Shown here piece after piece: positions 2,287-33,141 of a stretch of 64,000 nucleotides of DNA; position 1 is the stretch's first letter, and every line of letters starts with the position of its first letter. The position numbers and the translations under genes were made by a program. The stretch comes from a virus. Where the stretch lies: IMG/VR virus record IMGVR_UViG_3300017971_000294, positions 1 to 64,000 of that record, one strand, 5' to 3'. The notes beneath the pieces are model-generated. The model ran no database searches and had not been told where the DNA came from. It saw only the letters and a program-made list of their open reading frames with translations.

Positions 2287-4935
2287 TCATCCCTCCAGTA
2301 TCTTTGAAATTTTATGATCGTCAATCGGTTTTTTCGTAGACCATGCAGCATCTATTTCCGTATCTTCAAAATCGATCACAAGTGGTACATTGATGAAATC
2401 GAATCTTTCCCTTATCTGTTTCGTTCCAATGTCATTGATCGTTTTTATGATATGGGATTGTTCATCTGGTACTTGATCCTCAAGCCCGCTGTCATGAATT
2501 TGTGCAATCGACTTTGTTTTCCACCCCTCTTCTCGCCTTACATCTGCTACTCTCAATTTCGTCCATAACAAAATATGAAAAGCAGTACCTTGTATCTGAT
2601 GATTCGTACAATCATTTTTACCGAGTATGCCGCAATGTTCGAATCCAAGCAAAGACTCGATATACCCTTTTTTTCTGAATTCTCGATTGACTTCCTGTTT
2701 CCATTCATTGTAAACACCAAACCGCTCTTGCCAAAACTTCTGTTCAACCTTTTTGCAGTGTTCAGTAAAATCCTCAAGCGTTTTCAATCCTACCTTTGTA
2801 AAATGCTCCTTGAGATGTTTGCCTGATTTTGTTTCGATCACTTTTTTCCTCAGTTCTCTCCACATTGCCAATGCACAATTCCCGTAATAATCTCCATAAA
2901 ATTGAGGAAACACCCAACCATTTTTCCCAAATATGAATCTTATTTCTTTTGTGATTTCTTCAGGGGGCAGCATTGTGATATCGACAGCGGAATCCCTGTG
3001 CATGTCGGTTGATTTGTCGGTGACGTATTTGATCATCTGTGGATCTTTGTGATAAAAGCACCCCGCACACACTTCAATTCCGCTGAAATCCCACTCCATC
3101 AGCTTGTTGCCGCGCGACGGTACGATGCCCGATTTGCATATTTTTTTCGCATCTTCATCATGTTCAGGTATGTTCTGCCAATTTGGGTCTGAACTGGAAG
3201 ATCTATAACTCCTCACTCTATGCAAATGGTAGAAGGGATGAATTTTGCCGTATGTGACTTCCCTTAAGAATTGAGCGATATATTTATTGTCGATGTCAAG
3301 CCAAGAATTCATCTTCTGGTAGAGTCTTATGTAGTTTGAATCTTTGGTTCCAAGTGCTTTTTTGCTGATCGACACGTTTCCCTTCTGCGTCTCCTGTTTT
3401 TCGATTCCTATTATTTCGAAAAACAGTTTCTTCTTGTCGTCATCTTTTTTCAAACTCAATGTGTAGCCGTACCTCTCCTTGAACTGCTTCGCATATTGAT
3501 GCTCTACCTCAAGCTCCCTTCTCCTTTCTTCGATTTTCTTTCTCAAATCTTGCCTCGACTCCGCATACAGATCTTCCTCGATATGTATGCCGTTTATCGT
3601 CATCTCTGAAAAATCAACAGCACCTTCCATCAACAATTCAAGTGCTTCGATTATTTTTGGATTTCTCTCTGATCGCCTTTCAAATTCAAGATCTTGCTTG
3701 TGATAGTTTTTGAGTGCCCATTTAGAATCAAGTCCACCATATACCAGCAATTTATCAATCGGACATCTTGTCATGTTATTGAATGCGTTTGAATTTTCCG
3801 CTTTCTTGTACTGTTCGATCTCACTGCCGTATGGGTATATTCCAAAATTCTTGTAATTTTGAAAGTCGAGTGAAGTAATCCCGCTTCTTGAATCGAGTAC
3901 ATGGGCTCCAAGCATTGTGCAGTGGTACCAATTGGAGACTGGTGTGTTCATAATGACGCTTGACCATATCTCCTCGAACTGTATATTCTGCGCCACTTTA
4001 TAAATATCGCTTTTGAGGAATCGTTTCCACTTCTTTCTGATCTCTGAAATTTCCGACTCTGAAAAGTGGTTTGGATATTCGAATGGAAAAGAATAGGATG
4101 CTCCGTTGTCTATCGCAAATGATATCGAAACAATCTTATGCCCCTTAACAAATGGTTTTATCCCTGTCGTTTCGTAGTCGAATGCAGCAAGCGATACGTA
4201 CCCGTTGTTCAGAAGATCGAGTGCATCATTCACATCACCGAATTTGTAAAGGCAATGCACATCTTGTTTTGAATCGATAGGGTCGAAATCTTTTTTGTCA
4301 AGGCACTTTACTGCATTCTTCAAATCTCTTTTCCATACCGCCAATTCATTCGCTTTCCTCTCATTTTCACATCTCATTGCGAAACTTGGATGGTGCATCG
4401 GCAAGATATAGGCATTGTAGCGGGTGTCTGGAATGCACCATCCCCTCCAAGTAGACATTTTGATATGTGAAAAGTAGTCCATAAAAAAGGACTTCAATGC
4501 TGCCCTGCCAAGAAGCCATATGAATTTTGGCTTTGTTTCTTGAATGGCTTTTTCAACGAAAGGTCTACAGTATTTTATTTCATCGTCTTTGGGTTCTCTG
4601 AAGCTGTTGAGGTCTGGGGTATAGGGGCAACAGTTTACGGCATTGATTTTGAAGAAGTCTCTGTCAAGCTCAACCCCTTCATCCTTCAACTTCGATCTGA
4701 AATAATTACCGACATCACCAACGAGCTGGTATCCAACTTCATCTTCCTTTCTCCCGTTCGCCTCTGCGACAATCAAACACCCCCTTTTCCCCTCCCCCGT
4801 ATAAGACAGCTTCGGATTCTTGTTTGTCTTGAACATGCCGCACTGCATACAAGACACATCCGCTTCCATCCTCGTGTAATCATAATGACATTGCTTGTCG
4901 AATTCCTCTTCATCAATTCCAAAAAATCCAGGCAA
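2287..4935 (-). CDS. DNA polymerase, family A, with N-terminal uracil-DNA-glycosylase-like domain
   Basis: This 882-residue replicative polymerase is a fusion. Residues about 25-215 resemble a family 4/5 UDG: CxxC at the start, VAEANGRKEDE in place of the GEAPG motif, an LGRAA strand and the HHPSFA motif. A 3'-5' exonuclease follows (FDYETTG near 250). The Pol I palm has motif A WDFSGIEVC, motif B around KEIRFIFGKNG, and motif C QIHDSGLED. The start codon is TTG 4935 behind GAGGAGGTAAAG, overlapping the end of the clamp gene. Polymerase identity is firm; whether the UDG-like domain is catalytic is open. Confidence 0.92.
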   Translation of the reverse strand: MPGFFGIDEEEFDKQCHYDYTRMEADVSCMQCGMFKTNKNPKLSYTGEGKRGCLIVAEANGRKEDEVGYQLVGDVGNYFRSKLKDEGVELDRDFFKINAVNCCPYTPDLNSFREPKDDEIKYCRPFVEKAIQETKPKFIWLLGRAALKSFFMDYFSHIKMSTWRGWCIPDTRYNAYILPMHHPSFAMRCENERKANELAVWKRDLKNAVKCLDKKDFDPIDSKQDVHCLYKFGDVNDALDLLNNGYVSLAAFDYETTGIKPFVKGHKIVSISFAIDNGASYSFPFEYPNHFSESEISEIRKKWKRFLKSDIYKVAQNIQFEEIWSSVIMNTPVSNWYHCTMLGAHVLDSRSGITSLDFQNYKNFGIYPYGSEIEQYKKAENSNAFNNMTRCPIDKLLVYGGLDSKWALKNYHKQDLEFERRSERNPKIIEALELLMEGAVDFSEMTINGIHIEEDLYAESRQDLRKKIEERRRELEVEHQYAKQFKERYGYTLSLKKDDDKKKLFFEIIGIEKQETQKGNVSISKKALGTKDSNYIRLYQKMNSWLDIDNKYIAQFLREVTYGKIHPFYHLHRVRSYRSSSSDPNWQNIPEHDEDAKKICKSGIVPSRGNKLMEWDFSGIEVCAGCFYHKDPQMIKYVTDKSTDMHRDSAVDITMLPPEEITKEIRFIFGKNGWVFPQFYGDYYGNCALAMWRELRKKVIETKSGKHLKEHFTKVGLKTLEDFTEHCKKVEQKFWQERFGVYNEWKQEVNREFRKKGYIESLLGFEHCGILGKNDCTNHQIQGTAFHILLWTKLRVADVRREEGWKTKSIAQIHDSGLEDQVPDEQSHIIKTINDIGTKQIRERFDFINVPLVIDFEDTEIDAAWSTKKPIDDHKISKILEG

Positions 4936-6005: not shown

Positions 6006-7010
6006 TCAACCCTCCACTTTGTATATTGTCCTTTTGACATCGATTACCGATTCACAATCATCTTTGAACCAAAACGATGCAAGTCGATTGTAAATGTTGT
6101 TGTTGTGGTTGCAAACGATGATGAAGCATTCTGTTTCAAGATATGGATCTTTCATCTGCGGGAAATTACCAGACACATAGAAGTGACACTCTGCTTCTTT
6201 ACATGCATCCACATAAAACATCAGATTTAAAAGATCTCTCATTCTATGATTCGTCATGACACCATCACGGACCACGACTTCTTCACCATCTTGAATATAG
6301 GATTTGCCCATTTTGAAGCCCCTGCTATGGACATATCTCGCAATCGCTTCTTTCATCTCTTTTGGCATATTGTCGAAATGATTCAGGGAACTCGTTTTCC
6401 TCGATGCAGCCCTTTTTGTCGATTGGATTTCATGGGGTGGTTTTGTGTAAATAAAGTCACCATTCGTATTTATTTTTGGTATCAACATCGTTCCATGTCT
6501 GCTGAACGTCACCCAACTTGAACTGTCTATCGAGTAGAAGGGATATCTTTTCATGATCTCTGTCGATGTGATACCAAAACCGTGAAACTTGAGATCTGGT
6601 TCGCCATTCGTACAAACATAGTTCATGCATTCATCCAAGAATCTTATCTTGGATTTGGTGGGGCAATCGTTTGCAGGGGATAGACCTATGTAATCCATTT
6701 TGCTGATCGCTTTTTTAAGCCATTTGAAACTTTCGCCTTGATGGAATACATGAATAACCTTATCAGCAGCCACACCCCTTTCAATTGTTGCGAGATAGTT
6801 ATGCCATCCTTTTCGAGCCGCTTCCTCTTGCTCCAACGATGTGACACTTTCAGCGCCGTAGGTCGAGGGAATAACATCCAGACCAACAACATAATCAATA
6901 TCATCATCGTGTTTAAGAATGAATTCGATATATGTTTCAAGATCGACCTCCTTCTTCCTCATCCAAGCAGAAAACGCCCCGCTGTCAAGCATCAGATTGA
7001 ATTCTCTCAT
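6006..7010 (-). CDS. dpdA: DpdA-like DNA guanine transglycosylase (TGT superfamily)
   Basis: This 334-residue protein resembles phage DpdA enzymes, which swap guanine in DNA for a 7-deazaguanine base. It has the early LDSGAFSAW motif with the catalytic-type Asp, a VGLDVIP strand, and HGFGIT followed by the SIDSSSW strand typical of the family. It sits in one run with folE, queF, queC, queE and queD, which would supply the base. A GGAGAT site precedes ATG 7010. It is far from housekeeping tRNA TGT in length and motifs, which supports DNA as substrate. Confidence 0.8.
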   Translation of the reverse strand: MREFNLMLDSGAFSAWMRKKEVDLETYIEFILKHDDDIDYVVGLDVIPSTYGAESVTSLEQEEAARKGWHNYLATIERGVAADKVIHVFHQGESFKWLKKAISKMDYIGLSPANDCPTKSKIRFLDECMNYVCTNGEPDLKFHGFGITSTEIMKRYPFYSIDSSSWVTFSRHGTMLIPKINTNGDFIYTKPPHEIQSTKRAASRKTSSLNHFDNMPKEMKEAIARYVHSRGFKMGKSYIQDGEEVVVRDGVMTNHRMRDLLNLMFYVDACKEAECHFYVSGNFPQMKDPYLETECFIIVCNHNNNIYNRLASFWFKDDCESVIDVKRTIYKVEG

Positions 7011-7020
7011 TCGATCTCCG

Positions 7021-7227
7021 TCACAGAATAAGACTCAAGGCAATGTCTACGAATACTTTACCATCTTTCCACATCTTCTTTGTGTTCTTATTCAAGGCTT
7101 TTATTTCTCTTTTTCTCCAAGCTATTCTTCCTCTTTCGCCTAAAAGAGGTTCATCTGCACAAAGCGTTTTCTTCACTTCACCAAACAGCAGTACATAGAG
7201 AAAATTGACAATGCGTAAATCGATCAT
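7021..7227 (-). CDS. Small basic protein between folE and dpdA
   Basis: This gene encodes 68 residues with a hydrophobic start (MIDLRIVNFLYVLLFG) and a Lys/Arg-rich middle. It overlaps the end of folE by 4 bp (ATGA), so its translation is probably coupled to it. No family is recognised. The position inside the modification operon suggests an accessory role there, but nothing in the sequence shows it. Confidence 0.5.
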   Translation of the reverse strand: MIDLRIVNFLYVLLFGEVKKTLCADEPLLGERGRIAWRKREIKALNKNTKKMWKDGKVFVDIALSLIL

Positions 7228-7811
7228 AGCATCCCTTTACTTATTTTGATTAATTCGTATCCTTTCAATTCAAGTTCTTTTTCAGTCGCAAATGCACCAC
7301 GCACCGCACTCGTGCCCATACCCGATTGATATTGCTTCACCCCTCTGCATCCCATACACTCATGCCTTGCATACATCACAAGCATTGTACCTGTCGGACC
7401 AACATTAGAATCGAAAAAATCCACAATCTCATTGCAAAGTGTTTCTTGGAGTTGCGGTTTTCTGCTGAAAAAGTCTATGATCCTGCTTGGCTTGCTTGCA
7501 CCGATCAAATAATGTTTTGGAATATAAAGCAAATGTGCGTACCCTGAAAAAGGCAGCATATGGTGGGCACAGCATGAAACAAATCTGATGTTTGGAAAAT
7601 GGATAATACCACTTGCTATGTCTTTGTTTTTACTGAGAAATATATCATCGCATATTTTATCGACGCTTCTGAAAAATTCCCTGCTCCACATTTTCACTAT
7701 TCTTTGTGGTGTATTTTCTGTTTCTGGAAATTTCTCGGTTGTGATCGACAACTGCTCAAGGGCCAATTGAATTAATTTTACGGCTTTTGCTTCAGATGCT
7801 TTGAATTTCAT
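7224..7811 (-). CDS. folE: GTP cyclohydrolase I
   Basis: This 195-residue enzyme converts GTP to dihydroneopterin triphosphate, the first step toward preQ0. Zinc and active-site motifs are intact: CAHHMLPFSG near residue 80, ASKPSRIIDFFSRKPQLQE, and the late ARHECMGCRG with its Cys ligand, followed by TSAVRGAF. Length matches the family. It lies one base from queF and overlaps the next small gene. A phage copy here most simply feeds the DNA 7-deazaguanine pathway rather than folate synthesis. Confidence 0.95.
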   Translation of the reverse strand: MKFKASEAKAVKLIQLALEQLSITTEKFPETENTPQRIVKMWSREFFRSVDKICDDIFLSKNKDIASGIIHFPNIRFVSCCAHHMLPFSGYAHLLYIPKHYLIGASKPSRIIDFFSRKPQLQETLCNEIVDFFDSNVGPTGTMLVMYARHECMGCRGVKQYQSGMGTSAVRGAFATEKELELKGYELIKISKGML

Positions 7812-7812
7812 T

Positions 7813-8241
7813 TTATCCTCTATTGTCGGAACTACAAAAATATTTCTTGTTTACAGTAATATCTATTCCACCTCTCGCATTGAATATCCCGACCACCTGC
7901 ATGTAACTTGGATCACATTTAGCAATCAAATCATCTGCTATTTTATTCACTATCGATTCCATAAACGATTTATAATTCCTGAATGCGAACATGTACAATT
8001 TGAAACTTTTGCTTTCGATGCATAATCTTTTTGGTGCGTAGTCTATGATTATTTGTCCAAAATCGGGTTGACCCGTCTTTGGACACAGTGATGTGAACTC
8101 TTTCGTTTCAAGTTTAACAAGGTATTCAGAATCTGGATAATTGTTTGGGAATACTTCGATGATGTCTCTGTCTGGCAAATCGTACTTGTAAATTGTTTTA
8201 CTTCCAAGTGCTTTCAGATCTTTTGCTTGATCTTCCATCAT
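7813..8241 (-). CDS. queF: QueF-type preQ0 reductase (unimodular)
   Basis: This 142-residue protein has the QueF catalytic loop EFTSLCPKTGQPDFG, with the Cys that forms the thioimide and the Asp, and the NADPH motif ESKSFKLY. QueF reduces preQ0 to preQ1, so preQ1 would be the base offered to DpdA. The region that usually reads FHE (active-site His then Glu) here reads FME, so the His appears to be Met. The Glu is kept. Whether reduction is normal, slow or replaced by another reaction is therefore open. Confidence 0.88.
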   Translation of the reverse strand: MMEDQAKDLKALGSKTIYKYDLPDRDIIEVFPNNYPDSEYLVKLETKEFTSLCPKTGQPDFGQIIIDYAPKRLCIESKSFKLYMFAFRNYKSFMESIVNKIADDLIAKCDPSYMQVVGIFNARGGIDITVNKKYFCSSDNRG

Positions 8242-8275
8242 TGCTCCTTATCGATTTTGGAAATTGTCCAGACAT

Positions 8276-8983
8276 TCAAAACTCCGCCGCCTCATTCTTG
8301 TATCGTTGCAGGAGAGGATCTACGACACCTGCCTCCTCAAAACCTTTGGCTCTGAGTTTGCAGGCTGGACATTTTTCACAGGGCGGGTATTCACCCTCAT
8401 AGCATGTGTGGGAAAAAGACAAAGCATAAAAACATTTCTTTGCTAATTCAGTTGGAAATCCCCTTACCATTTCAATCGACTCTTTCTTGTTGAGATACAT
8501 TAGAGGTGTTATTATCGAAAATTGATAATCCATTCCATAAGATAATGTATCTTCCAAAGACTTTATTGTTCTGTGTCTGCAATCTGGATACCCTGAATAG
8601 TCCGTCTCACAAACACCGGTAATCATATAATGCGCTTTGTATTTGTATGCATTGATCGCTGCTACAGTCAGAAATAAAATGTTTCTACCTGGAACAAAAG
8701 AAGCAGGCAAATTCTTTGCGCTGTGGTGCTTTACATTGATATCACCGTTCCCTACCAATGCAGAATCCTTTGCAATTTTGAAAATATCGATTGGTATTAT
8801 GTGAATATCGATATCAGCTATCGATGCTATTCTCTTTGCTGATTGTATCTCGATTGAATGCCTCTGCCCGTAATCGAAAGTGACGGCATGGATAACATCG
8901 TAACCCTCCGCCATTGCAGAAAACATCGATATCGTGCTATCCATGCCGCCGCTCAATACGACAATCGCTCTTTTCAACTCCAT
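8276..8983 (-). CDS. queC: 7-cyano-7-deazaguanine (preQ0) synthase
   Basis: This 235-residue ATP pyrophosphatase carries the PP-loop VVLSGGMDSTISM at the start, FDYGQRHSIE, and the C-terminal zinc cluster CYEGEYPPCEKCPACKLRAKGF. It converts 7-carboxy-7-deazaguanine to preQ0. Length and motifs are complete. It overlaps the preceding acidic gene by 10 bp. Its own ribosome site is weak (AAAGGC), so translation is probably coupled to that gene. Confidence 0.94.
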   Translation of the reverse strand: MELKRAIVVLSGGMDSTISMFSAMAEGYDVIHAVTFDYGQRHSIEIQSAKRIASIADIDIHIIPIDIFKIAKDSALVGNGDINVKHHSAKNLPASFVPGRNILFLTVAAINAYKYKAHYMITGVCETDYSGYPDCRHRTIKSLEDTLSYGMDYQFSIITPLMYLNKKESIEMVRGFPTELAKKCFYALSFSHTCYEGEYPPCEKCPACKLRAKGFEEAGVVDPLLQRYKNEAAEF

Positions 8984-9609
8984 GATATGATGCCTTTTTC
9001 ATTAACCTTCGCACGTTTGCCAAATATTTTTACACCATATTTTTCACTCAATGCGTCAGTGATATAAGTCCGTGCAGTGGATTTCGCTTTTTTGGGAAAT
9101 TTCGCAACCGCTTTGTCAAGGACTTGCTTTCTTGTCCATTTCCCCTGATCGATCAGTTTGATGATATATTCCTTCATCTCCGATTTTCTTGAACTCTTTC
9201 TTGGCTTTTTGATTTCAGGTTCAGGTTCAGCTTCTTCAGGTTCTTCCTCTTCTTCATCTTCTTCATCAATCTCATCATCGGCTTCTTCCGCTTCAGCTTC
9301 TTCAGCTTCTTCTTCATATTCAGCTTCAGCTTCAGCAGCTTCTTCCTCTTCGCCGCCCTCCAATTCATCCTTAAACAGCATAGTGTAGAAATTGACGACA
9401 TGTTCTGGAAATTCAAGTTCTTCAGCATCGGTTCTGTTCGCAAATGCTTCATACGCTTCCACGAATGTTTTGACTCTATCCTCTTTCGTCACACCAATAT
9501 ACCGCAAATTCTTTTCGAGAAGTTTGTTTCCCGCCGCATCACACATGTCATTCAAACCCCTGATTGCAACATTCAAATGCCCATTCTCTAATTCTGCAAC
9601 TTCTTTCAT
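8974..9609 (-). CDS. Acidic linker protein with C-terminal TYITD domain (paralogue 1)
   Basis: This 211-residue protein has an N-terminal helical part, a long Glu/Asp/Ala-rich segment (about residues 75-135), and a basic C-terminal domain of about 70 residues containing GKWTRKQVLDKAVAKFP and KSTARTYITDALS. The same C-terminal domain occurs in the genes at 25448 and 30367. It looks like a small helical DNA-binding fold; that is inference. The acidic segment might mimic DNA or act as a spacer. It has a GGAGGAAC site and a possible promoter just upstream, and sits between queE and queC. Confidence 0.65.
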   Translation of the reverse strand: MKEVAELENGHLNVAIRGLNDMCDAAGNKLLEKNLRYIGVTKEDRVKTFVEAYEAFANRTDAEELEFPEHVVNFYTMLFKDELEGGEEEEAAEAEAEYEEEAEEAEAEEADDEIDEEDEEEEEPEEAEPEPEIKKPRKSSRKSEMKEYIIKLIDQGKWTRKQVLDKAVAKFPKKAKSTARTYITDALSEKYGVKIFGKRAKVNEKGIISWS

Positions 9610-9658
9610 TTTGTTCCTCCTATTGAATTGATTTGAAAATTTCTCACCGTCTGCTTGT

Positions 9659-9687
9659 ATGATAGCACCGCATTAAAATTCCATAAA
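9659..9687 (-). promoter_or_regulatory. Possible promoter before the acidic/queC genes
   Basis: On the minus strand TTTATG and TATCAT are separated by 17 bp, in the 85-bp gap between queE and the acidic gene. The -35 box is weak. It could give the downstream genes a start independent of queD-queE. Confidence 0.3.
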
Positions 9688-9694
9688 AATGAAT

Positions 9695-10354
9695 TCAAGG
9701 CAATTCGATAAATTTGTGGATTTGGATATTCATCACAACATCATGCAATGAATCTTTGATCATCTTGTCGAAAAGTATTGCAGTATTGCAATGTGGAAAG
9801 ACAGGTGAAAAGGCGATTCTCGATTTGAATCCTAAGTCCTTGATCAATCTGTAGCACTCTACTGCCTTTTTATAATCTTCATCGTCGCACAAAACAAATT
9901 TGAACCAATCATTCGAGTTCAAATCTTCTGGTAATTTTTTTACCCACATCGGATCATAATGCCCCGATCTTGGCATCTTCACATCAATTACCCATCCAAT
10001 TCTATTCCTCATCTTTGGAAGTTCTGGTATTTCTATTGATCCGTTCGTCTCGATAGAGATCTTTACATTTCGATTTCTGTACAAGTTTTCAAGCAAGGGG
10101 ATAAGATAGTGTTTTTGAAGCAGAGGCTCTCCTCCAGTCACGACAATATTCGTAAGCCCTTTACTTTTCACTCTTTCAGCAACGACAGGGACGGGCATCA
10201 ATATTCCCGACTTGGATGAAATATAATTTTTCGTATCGCAATAGCCACATTGGTAATTACATCCCGCAAGTCTTAAAAAAGTGCAGGGAATACCTTGGGG
10301 AAACAAGCCCACTTCCCCGCTTATACTGTTGAATATTTCGCCAACTAAAAGCAT
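9695..10354 (-). CDS. queE: 7-carboxy-7-deazaguanine synthase (radical SAM)
   Basis: This 219-residue enzyme has the QueE start VGEIFNSISGEVGLFPQG and the radical SAM cluster CNYQCGYCDTKN (CX3CX2C near residue 33), then TGGEPLLQ. It rearranges carboxy-tetrahydropterin, the QueD product, to 7-carboxy-7-deazaguanine. Length is normal. It starts 5 bp after queD ends, so both are read from the queD leader promoter. Confidence 0.94.
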   Translation of the reverse strand: MLLVGEIFNSISGEVGLFPQGIPCTFLRLAGCNYQCGYCDTKNYISSKSGILMPVPVVAERVKSKGLTNIVVTGGEPLLQKHYLIPLLENLYRNRNVKISIETNGSIEIPELPKMRNRIGWVIDVKMPRSGHYDPMWVKKLPEDLNSNDWFKFVLCDDEDYKKAVECYRLIKDLGFKSRIAFSPVFPHCNTAILFDKMIKDSLHDVVMNIQIHKFIELP

Positions 10355-25447: not shown

Positions 25448-26167
25448 TTAATTTTGTGTGGATGCCCACAGCTCCTCACTCTTTTTCCTTGAGCCAGGAG
25501 CCTTCTCATCTGAGAACTTGACAATTCTGGTCTCCTTGTCGATCACAACATAGTAATCGAAAGGACAATACTTACGACTTATACCATCACTGATATAAGT
25601 CGTAGCGGTACTTTTCGCACCTTCAGGAAAAGCTGTCATGTACATATCGACAAGCTGTTCCTTCGTGTACCTGCCCTCTTGGATCGCATTAGCGATCCAT
25701 TGCTTCATACCGCTTTTCTTGCCACCACCAGATTTCTTTTTGCTCTGCCTCTTTTTTTCTGCTTCCTTTTGTGCCGCAAGCGCATTGCACAAAAGGAACC
25801 TTTCCTCATACATCTCCTTGCAATCCTTGTTGCAGATTGGAGAGTTGAGGTCAGGATTTGCAAACACACCGCAAAACAGTTCATTTTCCTCATCCCTGTA
25901 TGCAGCGCACATCTCGTCCGTGATCTCTACCTCTGACTCTGAATTTTCTGCACTTTCCGATGGTTCAGGATCGGAAATTTCCGATGGTTCAGGATCCTGA
26001 GTGAACAAATGTGCAAATGCATCCTTTTTGAGGATCGGAGCATTATCGGATTTGAGCTTGAGCCTCAACTCCGCAATCTCCTTTTTGGTCATTTTCTCCA
26101 ACTCATCCGTCTTGATCGACGGATTCTCCTTGACCACTCGATTAATGATTTCTTGCTTTGTACTCAT
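25448..26167 (-). CDS. TYISD-domain protein with acidic linker (paralogue 2)
   Basis: This 239-residue protein begins with a SAP-like helical segment (KTDELEKMTKKEIAELRLKL), has an acidic Ser/Pro/Glu linker, a Cys-containing middle (CGVFANPDLNSPICNKDCKE), and the C-terminal domain GRYTKEQLVDMYMTAFPEG plus KSTATTYISDGISRKY shared with genes 8974 and 30367. Start is ATG 26167; codons upstream to 26227 lie in the leader. The ribosome site is inside a CCTTTTGTGAAAGG hairpin. Confidence 0.62.
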   Translation of the reverse strand: MSTKQEIINRVVKENPSIKTDELEKMTKKEIAELRLKLKSDNAPILKKDAFAHLFTQDPEPSEISDPEPSESAENSESEVEITDEMCAAYRDEENELFCGVFANPDLNSPICNKDCKEMYEERFLLCNALAAQKEAEKKRQSKKKSGGGKKSGMKQWIANAIQEGRYTKEQLVDMYMTAFPEGAKSTATTYISDGISRKYCPFDYYVVIDKETRIVKFSDEKAPGSRKKSEELWASTQN

Positions 26168-26219
26168 GATTTCTCTCCTTTCACAAAAGGTTATTGATTT
26201 GGAGCATAACCGCTCCACA

Positions 26220-26246
26220 CATAGCATGAAAATTTCTCATGCTATG
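26220..26246 (-). other. Intergenic hairpin with AATTTCT loop
   Basis: A 10-bp stem CATAGCATGA/TCATGCTATG with loop AAATTTC. The same stem sequence recurs at 27907, 28196 and 29638, which marks these four as copies. Confidence 0.7.
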
Positions 26247-30010: not shown

Positions 30011-30109
30011 CGAATCATATTCACTAAATGAATCGTATTCACTAAATGAATCATATTCACTAAATGAATCATATTCAGTGAATCATATTCAGAAAATGAA
30101 TTGCATTCA
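30011..30109. repeat. Array of TGAATCATATTCA palindromic sites
   Basis: Six 13-bp sites at 30011, 30029, 30047, 30065, 30079 and 30097, consensus TGAATCATATTCA, mostly 18 bp apart. Half-sites TGAAT and ATTCA are complementary. A second cluster lies at 32103-32275. The regular spacing near two helical turns suits a multi-dimer protein-binding site (iteron or operator). Confidence 0.7.
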
Positions 30110-30149: not shown

Positions 30150-30166
30150 CAATCTGAAATGAATTT

Positions 30167-30247
30167 TTATACAAATAGTGCGCTGAGCTGATACGAAACA
30201 ATTATTGTGATCATAATTACCGAATAGTAAAACATTGCTTTTTTCAT
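30167..30247 (-). CDS. Tiny single-pass membrane protein
   Basis: A 26-residue gene: MKKAMFYYSVIMITIIVSYQ, then LSALFV. Two Lys then a hydrophobic stretch make one membrane span. AAAAGGAGATTATTAAA precedes the ATG, and it is bracketed by two hairpins, which makes it a stand-alone unit. It may be a toxin-like or superinfection-type peptide; function unknown. Confidence 0.5.
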   Translation of the reverse strand: MKKAMFYYSVIMITIIVSYQLSALFV

Positions 30248-30279
30248 TTTAATAATCTCCTTTTTTTATTTTATATATC

Positions 30280-30319
30280 GCACTATTTCACCAAAAATTT
30301 AATGAAATAGTGCTTTTTT
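30280..30319 (+). terminator. Hairpin with T run on the plus strand
   Basis: GCACTATTTCA/TGAAATAGTGC is followed by TTTTTT on the plus strand. No plus-strand gene ends here, so it may block antisense transcription or act as a leader hairpin on the minus transcript. Confidence 0.5.
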
Positions 30320-30366
30320 CACAATTATTCCAATAACAGTATGCTTCGCCAATTAATTGTTAGGAA

Positions 30367-30867
30367 CTAAGACATATTGAATTGATTAATTCTTTCTTGT
30401 CTCAGTTCTTGCGCTAATTGTACTTTCGATTTTGGAATGACATCTTCAAAATGCAAAATGTCATTTGTTTTGTGTACTTTTCGTCCAAAAACATTTTTAT
30501 AATATCGATCATTTTGACTATCGGCAAGATATGTGCTGATAGTCGAAACAGCGTATTGACTATCAAATATAAATAGCGATTGGTCGATTAGACTTTTGCG
30601 TGTATAACGTGCTTCAGCTATCTTTTGTTCTAAAAAGATGAGTAAAGCACTTCGTTTTTTGCGCTTTGATCTGTTATGCCTAGTTCGCATGTTTTCTTTT
30701 TCAGAAACATGCTTTTTAGACACAACGTACCTACGATTTTCGTTCTTTAAACGTGCATTATCAAGTGCGATGTTTTTATAATGTTGAATAATTTCACTTT
30801 TGGTCATTGACTCAAAGTCTATGACAATCTGATTTAACTCTTGAATATCTTTAATTCTATTATTCAT
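30367..30867 (-). CDS. Basic TYLAD-domain protein (paralogue 3)
   Basis: This protein of 166 residues has a helical N-terminus, a very basic linker (RTRHNRSKRKKRSA) and a C-terminal domain ARYTRKSLIDQSLFIF plus VSTISTYLADSQNDRYY that matches the C-terminal domains of genes 8974 and 25448. ATG 30867 has only a weak GTGAG site; ATG 30885 is an alternative. It lies alone behind its own promoter near the repeat region and may be a DNA-binding regulator or origin-associated factor; that is inference. Confidence 0.55.
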   Translation of the reverse strand: MNNRIKDIQELNQIVIDFESMTKSEIIQHYKNIALDNARLKNENRRYVVSKKHVSEKENMRTRHNRSKRKKRSALLIFLEQKIAEARYTRKSLIDQSLFIFDSQYAVSTISTYLADSQNDRYYKNVFGRKVHKTNDILHFEDVIPKSKVQLAQELRQERINQFNMS

Positions 30868-30921
30868 TTGTATGCTCACTTTCATTTTATAAGCGAAGCA
30901 TACTGTTATTGGAACAATGAT

Positions 30922-30964
30922 GATGCAATAGGCATTCAATTGAATGCCTATTGCATCTTTTTTT
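30922..30964 (+). terminator. 36-bp perfect palindrome with T run on the plus strand
   Basis: The half-site GATGCAATAGGCATTCAA is followed by its exact complement and then seven T on the plus strand. On the minus strand it stands in the 5' leader of gene 30367. Plus-strand terminator or minus-strand leader hairpin are both possible. Confidence 0.55.
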
Positions 30965-30988
30965 GTGAAAAGAGTGAAAAGAGTGAAC

Positions 30989-31018
30989 GTTATAATCTGA
31001 TATCAACTCTTATGTCAT
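30989..31018 (-). promoter_or_regulatory. Promoter for gene 30367
   Basis: ATGACA and TATAAC are separated by 18 bp on the minus strand. Start would be near 30982, placing the long palindrome at 30922 in the leader. Confidence 0.45.
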
Positions 31019-31024
31019 ACTCGA

Positions 31025-31635
31025 AGTGTATTTATTGAATCGATTGAAGTCGTTTTTCGTTCGTGCTTCAGTATAATGCATTATACTTTGAACAAAATGC
31101 GCATTGCATCGGATCTAAAGATCGACTTAGCATGTCATATCGCATGATCAAACTATGTCAATGATCATTTTCATTCCTATTTGAATGAGCTATGCATCAC
31201 TCATTCTTTAGGAATGATCGGACGATATCGCTTTTAAGTCATCGACGCCAAAAAATAAGTATCGACTTTTCAACTTGTTTTTGACATAAGCACAATTGGC
31301 TATATAGCCAATTTAATGATATCGATTATTATGCTACTCGACGCAATCAATGTTTAGATCACTGCTAAAGTACTGATTAAATCAGTTTTCTACTTGAAAC
31401 TAGCTTCGATGCCCAAAGTCGTTGACATCTTAAAATTGACCTAGACACCGATTGTGTCTCATAACAACGTTTTATATGCGATACATTGATTAATAAGAGT
31501 CAAGACATACTCAGTCTATTAGGACTTTCACCTAATAGACATGTCTCATGAAGTATCGGTATTAAGACTTCTATCTTGACTATCTGAATAGACATAGTGC
31601 CTATATACGTAGCAATGATAATGCCAATATTAATA
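31025..31635 (-). ncRNA. Candidate large structured RNA (about 600 nt)
   Basis: No open frame over 60 codons is convincing here, yet helix follows helix: GTCTATTAGG/CCTAATAGAC (31514-31540) with loop TGAAAGT, AGACAC/GTGTCT (31443-31459), ACTGAT/ATCAGT (31372-31386), AATTGGCTA/TAGCCAATT (31294-31313), CATTCCTA/TAGGAATG plus AATGAG/CTCATT (31172-31216), AGTATAATG/CATTATACT (31070-31087) and an enclosing AGTCA/TGACT pair at 31498-31581. An extended -10 promoter reads into it on the minus strand. Size and density recall GOLLD and ROOL phage RNAs. No sequence match can be claimed without a search; an origin with many palindromes is the alternative. Confidence 0.5.
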
Positions 31636-31641
31636 AGTTTT

Positions 31642-31650
31642 ATTATATCA
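31642..31650 (-). promoter_or_regulatory. Extended -10 promoter for the structured RNA
   Basis: TGATATAAT on the minus strand is a perfect TGn-TATAAT. An ATATTG box stands 15 bp upstream of the -10. Start would be near 31635. Confidence 0.55.
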
Positions 31651-31755
31651 GCCCTAAAAAGACAATATATCCAATTATATCAACATGTTATATTCCAAAA
31701 AAATATTTTTTAAAAATAAAACACCAAAAGTAGCCTATTAAATCTTAATAAAGAA

Positions 31756-31868
31756 TGACAAAAAATGTCATAATGATATCAATAGCTTACACAATTACTA
31801 AAATAAACTATTGATATCATTGAATAATTCATTGACAAAAAATGTCACTATACTGACAAAAATTGTCA
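31756..31868. repeat. Three TGACA-N5-TGTCA dyads with a larger inverted repeat
   Basis: 15-bp dyads at 31756-31770, 31833-31847 and 31854-31868; the last two are 21 bp apart, two helical turns. Between the first and second, AATGATATCAATAG and CTATTGATATCATT form a 14-bp inverted repeat. This is an operator or origin pattern rather than coding DNA. Confidence 0.65.
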
Positions 31869-32102
31869 CTATCAATAGAATAGAGAATAAGAGAATAATC
31901 CCAAGACAAAGATTGTGTATAGCATTTACTGAAGTCGCATCACATAGGATTATAGGTGTAGAATCAATGCAATGAATAGCAATCATCAGTGATCATTCAA
32001 TTGTAGGCTCATGTGTAGCAATGTAATAAATGAATGTGCTGTAGTTCTTATGTGTCTTGATGAGTCATGCATTATGCAATGGTACACTATTGCATTATGC
32101 AA

Positions 32103-32275
32103 TGATTCATATTCATAAACTAAATGGCATTCATTAAATCAATCAAATAAAATGAATCATATTCAGTATTTAAATGGCGTTCATTTATCTGTGCAGACTA
32201 TAAAGTTGACATAAGATATATTATCAGACACTCGATGAGATAGGTGAATCGCATTCAAAAAATGAATCGCATTCA
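32103..32275. repeat. Second cluster of TGAATC-type palindromic sites
   Basis: Sites at 32103 (TGATTCATATTCA), 32153 (TGAATCATATTCA), 32245 and 32263 (TGAATCGCATTCA), plus half sites GGCATTCA and GGCGTTCA. The last two are again 18 bp apart, like the array at 30011-30109. Confidence 0.65.
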
Positions 32276-32333
32276 TTTAATGACCCCTCTTCAAATCTTG
32301 AATCGGATTTTCGATGCAGCGCGTATGGGACCC

Positions 32334-32540
32334 CATCACAAAATATTTTCTGCATTTTGCCTCGGAATTTATTCCATTCCATATTAGCCTTTAGCCTTTA
32401 GCTCATCACAAAATATTTTTCATATTTTACCGTGAAATGTTTTTCCATCAATTCCATATTAGCCTTTGGCCTTTAGCCTTTAGCCTTTAGCTCATCACAA
32501 AATATTTTCTGCATTTTGCCTCGGAATTTATTCCATTCCG
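32334..32540. repeat. Three imperfect direct repeats
   Basis: Units starting CATCACAAAATATTTT at 32334, 32404 and 32493 contain TGCCTCGGAATTTATTCC-like segments and variable numbers of TAGCCTT microrepeats. Units one and three are nearly identical. From 32541 to 32766 I see only AT-rich sequence without a clear feature. Confidence 0.65.
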
Positions 32541-32766
32541 CATGTGGTAATAGAATTACATTGGTGTTTTAGGTTTTTATAGGGTCTGACTGACTCTAAA
32601 TTACATTGCGGAAAGAGGTAATCAGAGAAAATCAATGGTTATTGATGAAATTACATTGCTTTTATTTTAAATTTTCATTGGATTGGTTGTAATCATGTTT
32701 TATTGTCTTTATTTGATGTTTTAGTTTCAGTGTATGGAATGGGAGAATGTATTGATTTTTTAGTTT

Positions 32767-33141
32767 TTATTCTATTTCCTCCAACAGTTCTATCGGATAC
32801 CAACCGCCCTCTACCGTATCTACTATTCTTTTGGTATGGTATTTGTTGTGTACCGTGTTGAACATTCTTTGATCTCTTGCGGTGTATTTCAGTATCATTA
32901 TTTCTTTTGGAATTGTCGTTTCATCTTTCAATTCGATCAAGCCGTCGTCTGTTCTTCTTTTGACGACTTTCATTTTCTTGGTTTCTTTCATATAATCGTA
33001 TCCTCCTATCACTTTTATTTCTTCAATCATGCACTCTGCTATATTGCACATTTTAAGGCACTCGATGCATGGTAGATTGTCTGTGCAATCTGGATTGTCG
33101 TCGCAGTAGGAGCATAGTAAAAGGACTTTTCGTTTTTTCAT
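32767..33141 (-). CDS. Cys-rich protein with an internal in-frame start
   Basis: This 124-residue gene codes for an N-terminal Cys cluster (CSYCDDNPDC, CIECLKMC, C) and a basic beta-rich second half (KMKVVKRRTDDGLIELKDET). The second half can start at ATG 32991, which has an in-frame GATAGGAGGATACG site, so a shorter product of 74 residues is likely. The same arrangement occurs at 20875. The start at 33141 stands in an 8-bp ATGAAAAA repeat, far from the AAGGA site. Confidence 0.5.
   Translation of the reverse strand: MKKRKVLLLCSYCDDNPDCTDNLPCIECLKMCNIAECMIEEIKVIGGYDYMKETKKMKVVKRRTDDGLIELKDETTIPKEIMILKYTARDQRMFNTVHNKYHTKRIVDTVEGGWYPIELLEEIE

Follow-up and report, generated by a model that had tools for sequence, protein, structure and literature searches.

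The window, the whole stretch of 64,000 nucleotides analysed here, comprises positions 1–64,000 of a 66.5-kb virus record of the IMG/VR database. The genes located to the left of approximately 31 kb are carried by the minus strand and include those for a clamp loader, a UDG-DNA polymerase A fusion, a processivity factor, helicases and a replication initiator. The terminase and later genes, starting at 33.9 kb, are carried by the plus strand. Between a 190-codon ORF (30367–30939, minus strand) and position 32767, approximately 1.8 kb (30940–32766) contain no ORF longer than 65 codons, in agreement with the gene-free region of 1.9 kb described in an earlier sequence-only reading. That reading attributed no credible coding capacity to about 600 nt at 31025–31650, and the longest stop-to-stop frame there does not exceed 49 codons. 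The GC skew turns near 31–33 kb, and no tRNA genes were found in the 64 kb. The DNA polymerase fusion (2287–4935, minus strand) consists of a family A polymerase with an N-terminal domain of the uracil-DNA-glycosylase superfamily. Queuosine-type genes, encoding GTP cyclohydrolase I, QueC, a radical SAM protein and a protein similar to queuine tRNA-ribosyltransferase, are located at 6006–10354 (minus strand), which suggests 7-deazaguanine modification, perhaps of the phage DNA.

Related terminases were found in 226 IMG/VR stretches, the best 80 of which (approximately 51–59% identity) were used for comparison, and none was found in the named-phage collection. The 190-codon ORF and the DNA polymerase, used as baits, retrieved no IMG/VR relatives. 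Many of the relatives possess gene-free gaps of 1–3 kb at the place where the leftward early genes meet the rightward late genes. The shared terminase marks out a large family of uncultured phages, and the region 31025–31650 is its divergent control region. The features of this region are listed in the table.

Table. Features of the divergent control region and its surroundings (positions in the window)
Feature	Position	Strand	Details
26-aa hydrophobic peptide ORF	30167–30247	−	good ribosome-binding site; inverted repeats on flanks
Inverted repeat	30162–30182 / 30279–30299		encloses a gene beside the RNA region
Inverted repeat around the 172-aa gene	30892–30918 (5' arm) / 30324–30350 (3' arm)	−	27 bp, 20 bp perfect
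172-aa gene downstream of the RNA	30367–30885	−	ORF open to 30939
Hairpin past the RNA 3' end	30922–30957		perfect, 16 bp
Candidate structured RNA	30985–31640	−	leftward, ~650 nt; fold z −5.0 to −5.4; 120 high-probability pairs; ORF-free
3' domain	30992–31329	−	closed by long-range helices of 6+7+8 bp (31329+31323+31290 with 30992+30999+31009), p 0.96–0.99; predicted pairs form a palindrome hairpin (31313–31294) and a three-way junction (31240–31124)
Middle domain	31332–31466	−	internally branched; closed by 6+10+7 bp (31466, 31454, 31443 with 31332, 31344, 31355), p 0.87–0.99
5' domain	31498–31581	−	predicted pairs: 10-bp closing helix (31581/31498) and 10-bp hairpin (31540–31514) with TGAAAGT loop
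Extended −10 element TGATATAAT	31642–31650	−	motif match; reads into the candidate RNA
Second, tandem extended −10 element TGATATAAT	31674–31682	−	motif match
Operator-like palindromes TGACAAAAAATGTCA	31756–31770, 31833–31847, 31854–31868	strandless	three copies
Sigma-70-like promoter TTGATA-17-TATAGT	31847–31875	−	consensus match only; over operator-like palindromes
dif-like XerC/XerD site	32204–32231	+	11-6-11; outside the RNA; also in L003, L006–L010, L018, L020, L024, L027, L030, L034–L036, L041, L043, L059, L060, L069, L070, L073, L076

The extended −10 promoter motif that was said to read into the region is present and is accompanied by a second copy not named before. The motif TGNTATAAT occurs seven times in 64 kb against 3.1 expected, and two of these occurrences stand in tandem, in leftward orientation, just upstream of the candidate RNA. 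The putative sigma-70-like promoter overlaps two of the three copies of TGACAAAAAnTGTCA, and the window contains no copies of the operator-like palindrome TGACAAAAAATGTCA beyond the three listed. The hairpin past the 3' end of the RNA has a strong T-run on its plus side only and is therefore predicted to be a terminator for the plus strand and at best a weak one for the minus strand. The predicted fold of the 172-aa protein encoded further downstream consists of a coiled coil and a winged-helix-like C-terminal domain (C-terminal pLDDT about 90). Its matches in the PDB are weak and include many winged helices, and the phage encodes two paralogues (25448–26227 and 8974–9609). Inverted repeats enclose the genes beside the RNA region, and by eye such repeats are also present in relatives L056 and L077; in the mRNA, the two flanks of an enclosed ORF could thus pair with each other. 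Enclosure by inverted repeats was rejected as a general rule for early genes, as other genes of the window fail the test.

As expected of structured noncoding RNA, the segment 31025–31650 folds more stably than its dinucleotide shuffles (n = 100). The folding energy of the minus strand is −167.3 kcal/mol against −132.4 ± 6.9 kcal/mol in shuffles (z = −5.04), and that of the plus strand gives z = −4.14; none of the 100 shuffles reached the native value in either case. Counts of G-U pairs favour neither strand. The minus-strand ensemble of 30985–31640 contains 120 pairs with p > 0.9 (41 ± 25 in shuffles, with 113 in the top of 100), and its 15 stems of at least 7 bp (shuffles: mean 7.6, maximum 13) bear out the seven or more near-perfect helices noticed earlier. 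The pairs are arranged in three tandem domains, each shut by long-range helices. The TGAAAGT loop does top a perfect 10-bp stem (31514–31540); its identity as a T-loop is only possible, and it is weak evidence because the loop pattern is loose.

Excess folding is not confined to this segment. The adjoining noncoding DNA (31650–32280) has a z-score of −5.4, and hairpins between the early genes at 22–30 kb score higher per 200 nt. Since a fold excess is common in noncoding parts of the phage, the z-score alone is no proof of an RNA. The z-scores of similar size in the neighbourhood would fit AT-rich noncoding DNA whose inverted repeats are decayed or due to chance and that contains no functional RNA, as would the failure to find a homologue of the window RNA (see below). 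However, such an origin seems unlikely in view of the number of high-probability pairs, which exceeds that of all 100 shuffles, and of the ordered layout in three domains.

It is also conceivable that the palindromes act at the level of DNA, in a replication origin, a centromere-like region or an Xer-accessory control region, and that the foldability is a by-product of palindromes bound by proteins. This is the main rival to the RNA reading, because TGAATnnnATTCA palindrome arrays and a dif-like site share the gene-free region with the candidate RNA. The arrays are located on both sides of the gene-free region (30029–30109 and 32153–32275), where eight palindromes were found against 0.5 expected. 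They also flank the dif-like site, and their palindromes have a spacer of 3 bp and are mostly repeated every 18 bp. Similar repeats are present in relatives L061, L077, L024, L030, L057, L041 and L040. The palindromes resemble ARG boxes, but the spacer of ARG boxes is 4 bp.

The dif-like site of the window reads AGTTGACATAA-GATATA-TTATCAGACAC. Counting the window and 22 relatives, 23 loci share this 11-6-11 design, in either orientation and with near-invariant arms, a variable centre and the consensus AGTTKACATAA-6-TTATCAGACnn. The site occurs once per record in six of the 13 records searched, in two of the six with two mismatches. The T form of its left arm, AGTTTACATAA, is the reverse complement of the arm TTATGTAAACT of Bacillus subtilis dif (PMC3025954). 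Neither a tyrosine recombinase (PF00589) nor a ParA-type ATPase (PF13614) was detected in ten records, which are possibly incomplete; both models matched 14 of 14 control genomes. The host XerCD may serve these phages in dimer resolution or in integration at dif. The three operator-like palindromes, the turn of the GC skew and the folding of both strands would also agree with a role of the DNA itself. On the other hand, the segment 31025–31650 contains none of these repeats, and its stems are formed by nested, long-range pairing and not by repeated sites. A DNA-level role is regarded as a possible, if rather improbable, explanation of the folding.

The large structured RNA proposed in the sequence-only reading was compared there with GOLLD and ROOL. 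A diverged member of one of these families would agree with the similar length, the phage origin and the dense nested helices of the candidate. Like ROOL (RF03087), which is also phage-encoded, the candidate has a comparable size (~570 nt in ROOL) and no coding capacity, and with GOLLD (RF02032) it shares the character of a large structured phage RNA; the function of both families is unclear. ROOL RNAs assemble into homo-oligomeric nanocages. ROOL and GOLLD RNAs are often located near phage tRNA islands, and many GOLLD RNAs are longer than 800 nt (PMC12286853). In contrast to ROOL, the candidate lies where an early operon begins, with no tRNA island in the window, and it matched neither model. 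The Rfam search of the whole window had no match that reached gathering scores. With all 4227 families, including OLE, HEARO and group I/II introns, nothing was found within 31025–31650 at E-values up to 5. The model search with GOLLD, ROOL and OLE that had been proposed was thus carried out and gave no match in the segment. Run directly, the ROOL and GOLLD models had no matches in this record at E-values up to 10, the negative being weaker for ROOL, which matched no control genome, and the conserved 3' region of GOLLD was not detected. Both models gave no credible match in this record plus seven relatives. Weak Rfam matches at 17–30 kb of the window and in relative L061 fall short of the gathering scores and lack credibility. 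That the candidate is a GOLLD or ROOL RNA, however strongly diverged, is therefore very improbable, and it should not be filed under either name; the proposal of a large structured RNA as such remains plausible, with a new class being possible.

The homologue searches for the window RNA used several approaches. BLASTN comparisons of the region with phage and plasmid records, and with all fetched relatives and ten related records, gave nothing beyond chance. No exact copy of the 20-nt palindrome of the region was found in IMG/VR, and among the matches listed for the 15-mer hairpin TAGGTGAAAGTCCTA none had the full 10-bp stem. A model of the three-way junction found nothing credible in 80 loci and matched only the window itself. 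While no homologue of the window RNA was found in which covariation could appear, covariation was detected in the syntenic RNA of relatives L041 and L021, whose terminases are 55–58% identical to that of the window.

At the syntenic place, L021 and L041 share approximately 69% identity over ~330 nt. The minus strand of this alignment, a single pair of sequences, has a fold score of −37.3 against −15.3 ± 3.5 in column shuffles (z = −6.2) and 17 double-sided compensatory pairs against 5.1; none of the 100 shuffles reached either value. The plus strand is weaker (z = −4.95). In a domain of 97 nt, all 27 pairs are kept, seven of them are changed on both sides and none is broken, and sliding the partners by 1–3 columns reduces the pairing to 28–48%. 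L041 and L021 carry a real structured RNA at the syntenic position. It has no match in Rfam, and the model of its domain matches these two phages only. This RNA shares with that of the window the genomic position and strand, the gene-free surroundings and a branched fold, but the two are not alignable and have no similarity of sequence or model. Preservation of pairing while the sequence changes is unlike the behaviour of a protein-binding palindrome and argues against the DNA-level role, and the covariation of an RNA at this shared position also speaks against the absence of any functional RNA.

Other pairs of relatives show an alignment signal on either strand or a mixed one. L061 and L077 were rejected as a case of minus-strand RNA, since the signal there is on the plus strand, and low-identity stretches of L070 and L076 were rejected as covarying because they do not beat column shuffles.

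Taken together, the fold excess, the lack of genes, the promoter-like motifs, the position and the covarying RNA found at the syntenic site of two relatives make it reasonably probable that the leftward early transcript opens with a structured RNA of ~650 nt, transcribed from positions 31640–30985 of the minus strand, which folds as an independent unit. Either the tandem extended −10 promoters or, a little further upstream, the promoter under operator control would initiate transcription, and the RNA would fold into its three tandem domains. No strong terminator would separate the RNA from the gene of the winged-helix-like protein, towards which the transcript would continue. The RNA may be a cis-acting structured leader through which read-through of the early transcript, its stability or its translation is controlled. 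If there is an RNA at all, such a leader is slightly favoured, with a stand-alone trans-acting RNA a close second, because the RNA would form the first part of a leftward transcript that continues with the hairpin and then the 172-aa gene.

Structured 5' leaders are known in early transcripts of phages, an example being the put antitermination RNA of HK022. The candidate is similar to them in lying downstream of a regulated promoter, where an early transcript begins. It is far larger than the put RNA, and the likeness is one of position.

Judging from position, the simplest reading is that the window RNA and the RNA of L041 and L021 belong to one fast-diverging class. A more far-reaching proposal, which we hold only tentatively and consider rather doubtful, is a new class of ornate phage RNA of about 400–700 nt with which the leftward early transcript begins in this large uncultured phage family, and whose members would diverge so rapidly that they have only position, branching and pairing in common. 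The number of known giant phage RNAs is very small, and what they do is unclear. If the proposal is true, an RNA family at the early control region beside an Xer site would provide a genomic context for testing function, and its many divergent versions would serve comparative structure work.

Some relatives contain other structured elements. A conserved structured block with GGCTAACACCATmAGG is located on the plus strand of L061 (2008–2230) and L077 (about 1990–2180); by eye it is similar to a twister core, and it has no Rfam match. Type-P5 twister ribozymes, to which the hairpins between the early genes of the window are unrelated, are found on the early-gene strand of two relatives: nine of them, a few hundred bases apart, in L071 (770–3847, minus strand), and two in L088 (980–3002, minus strand).
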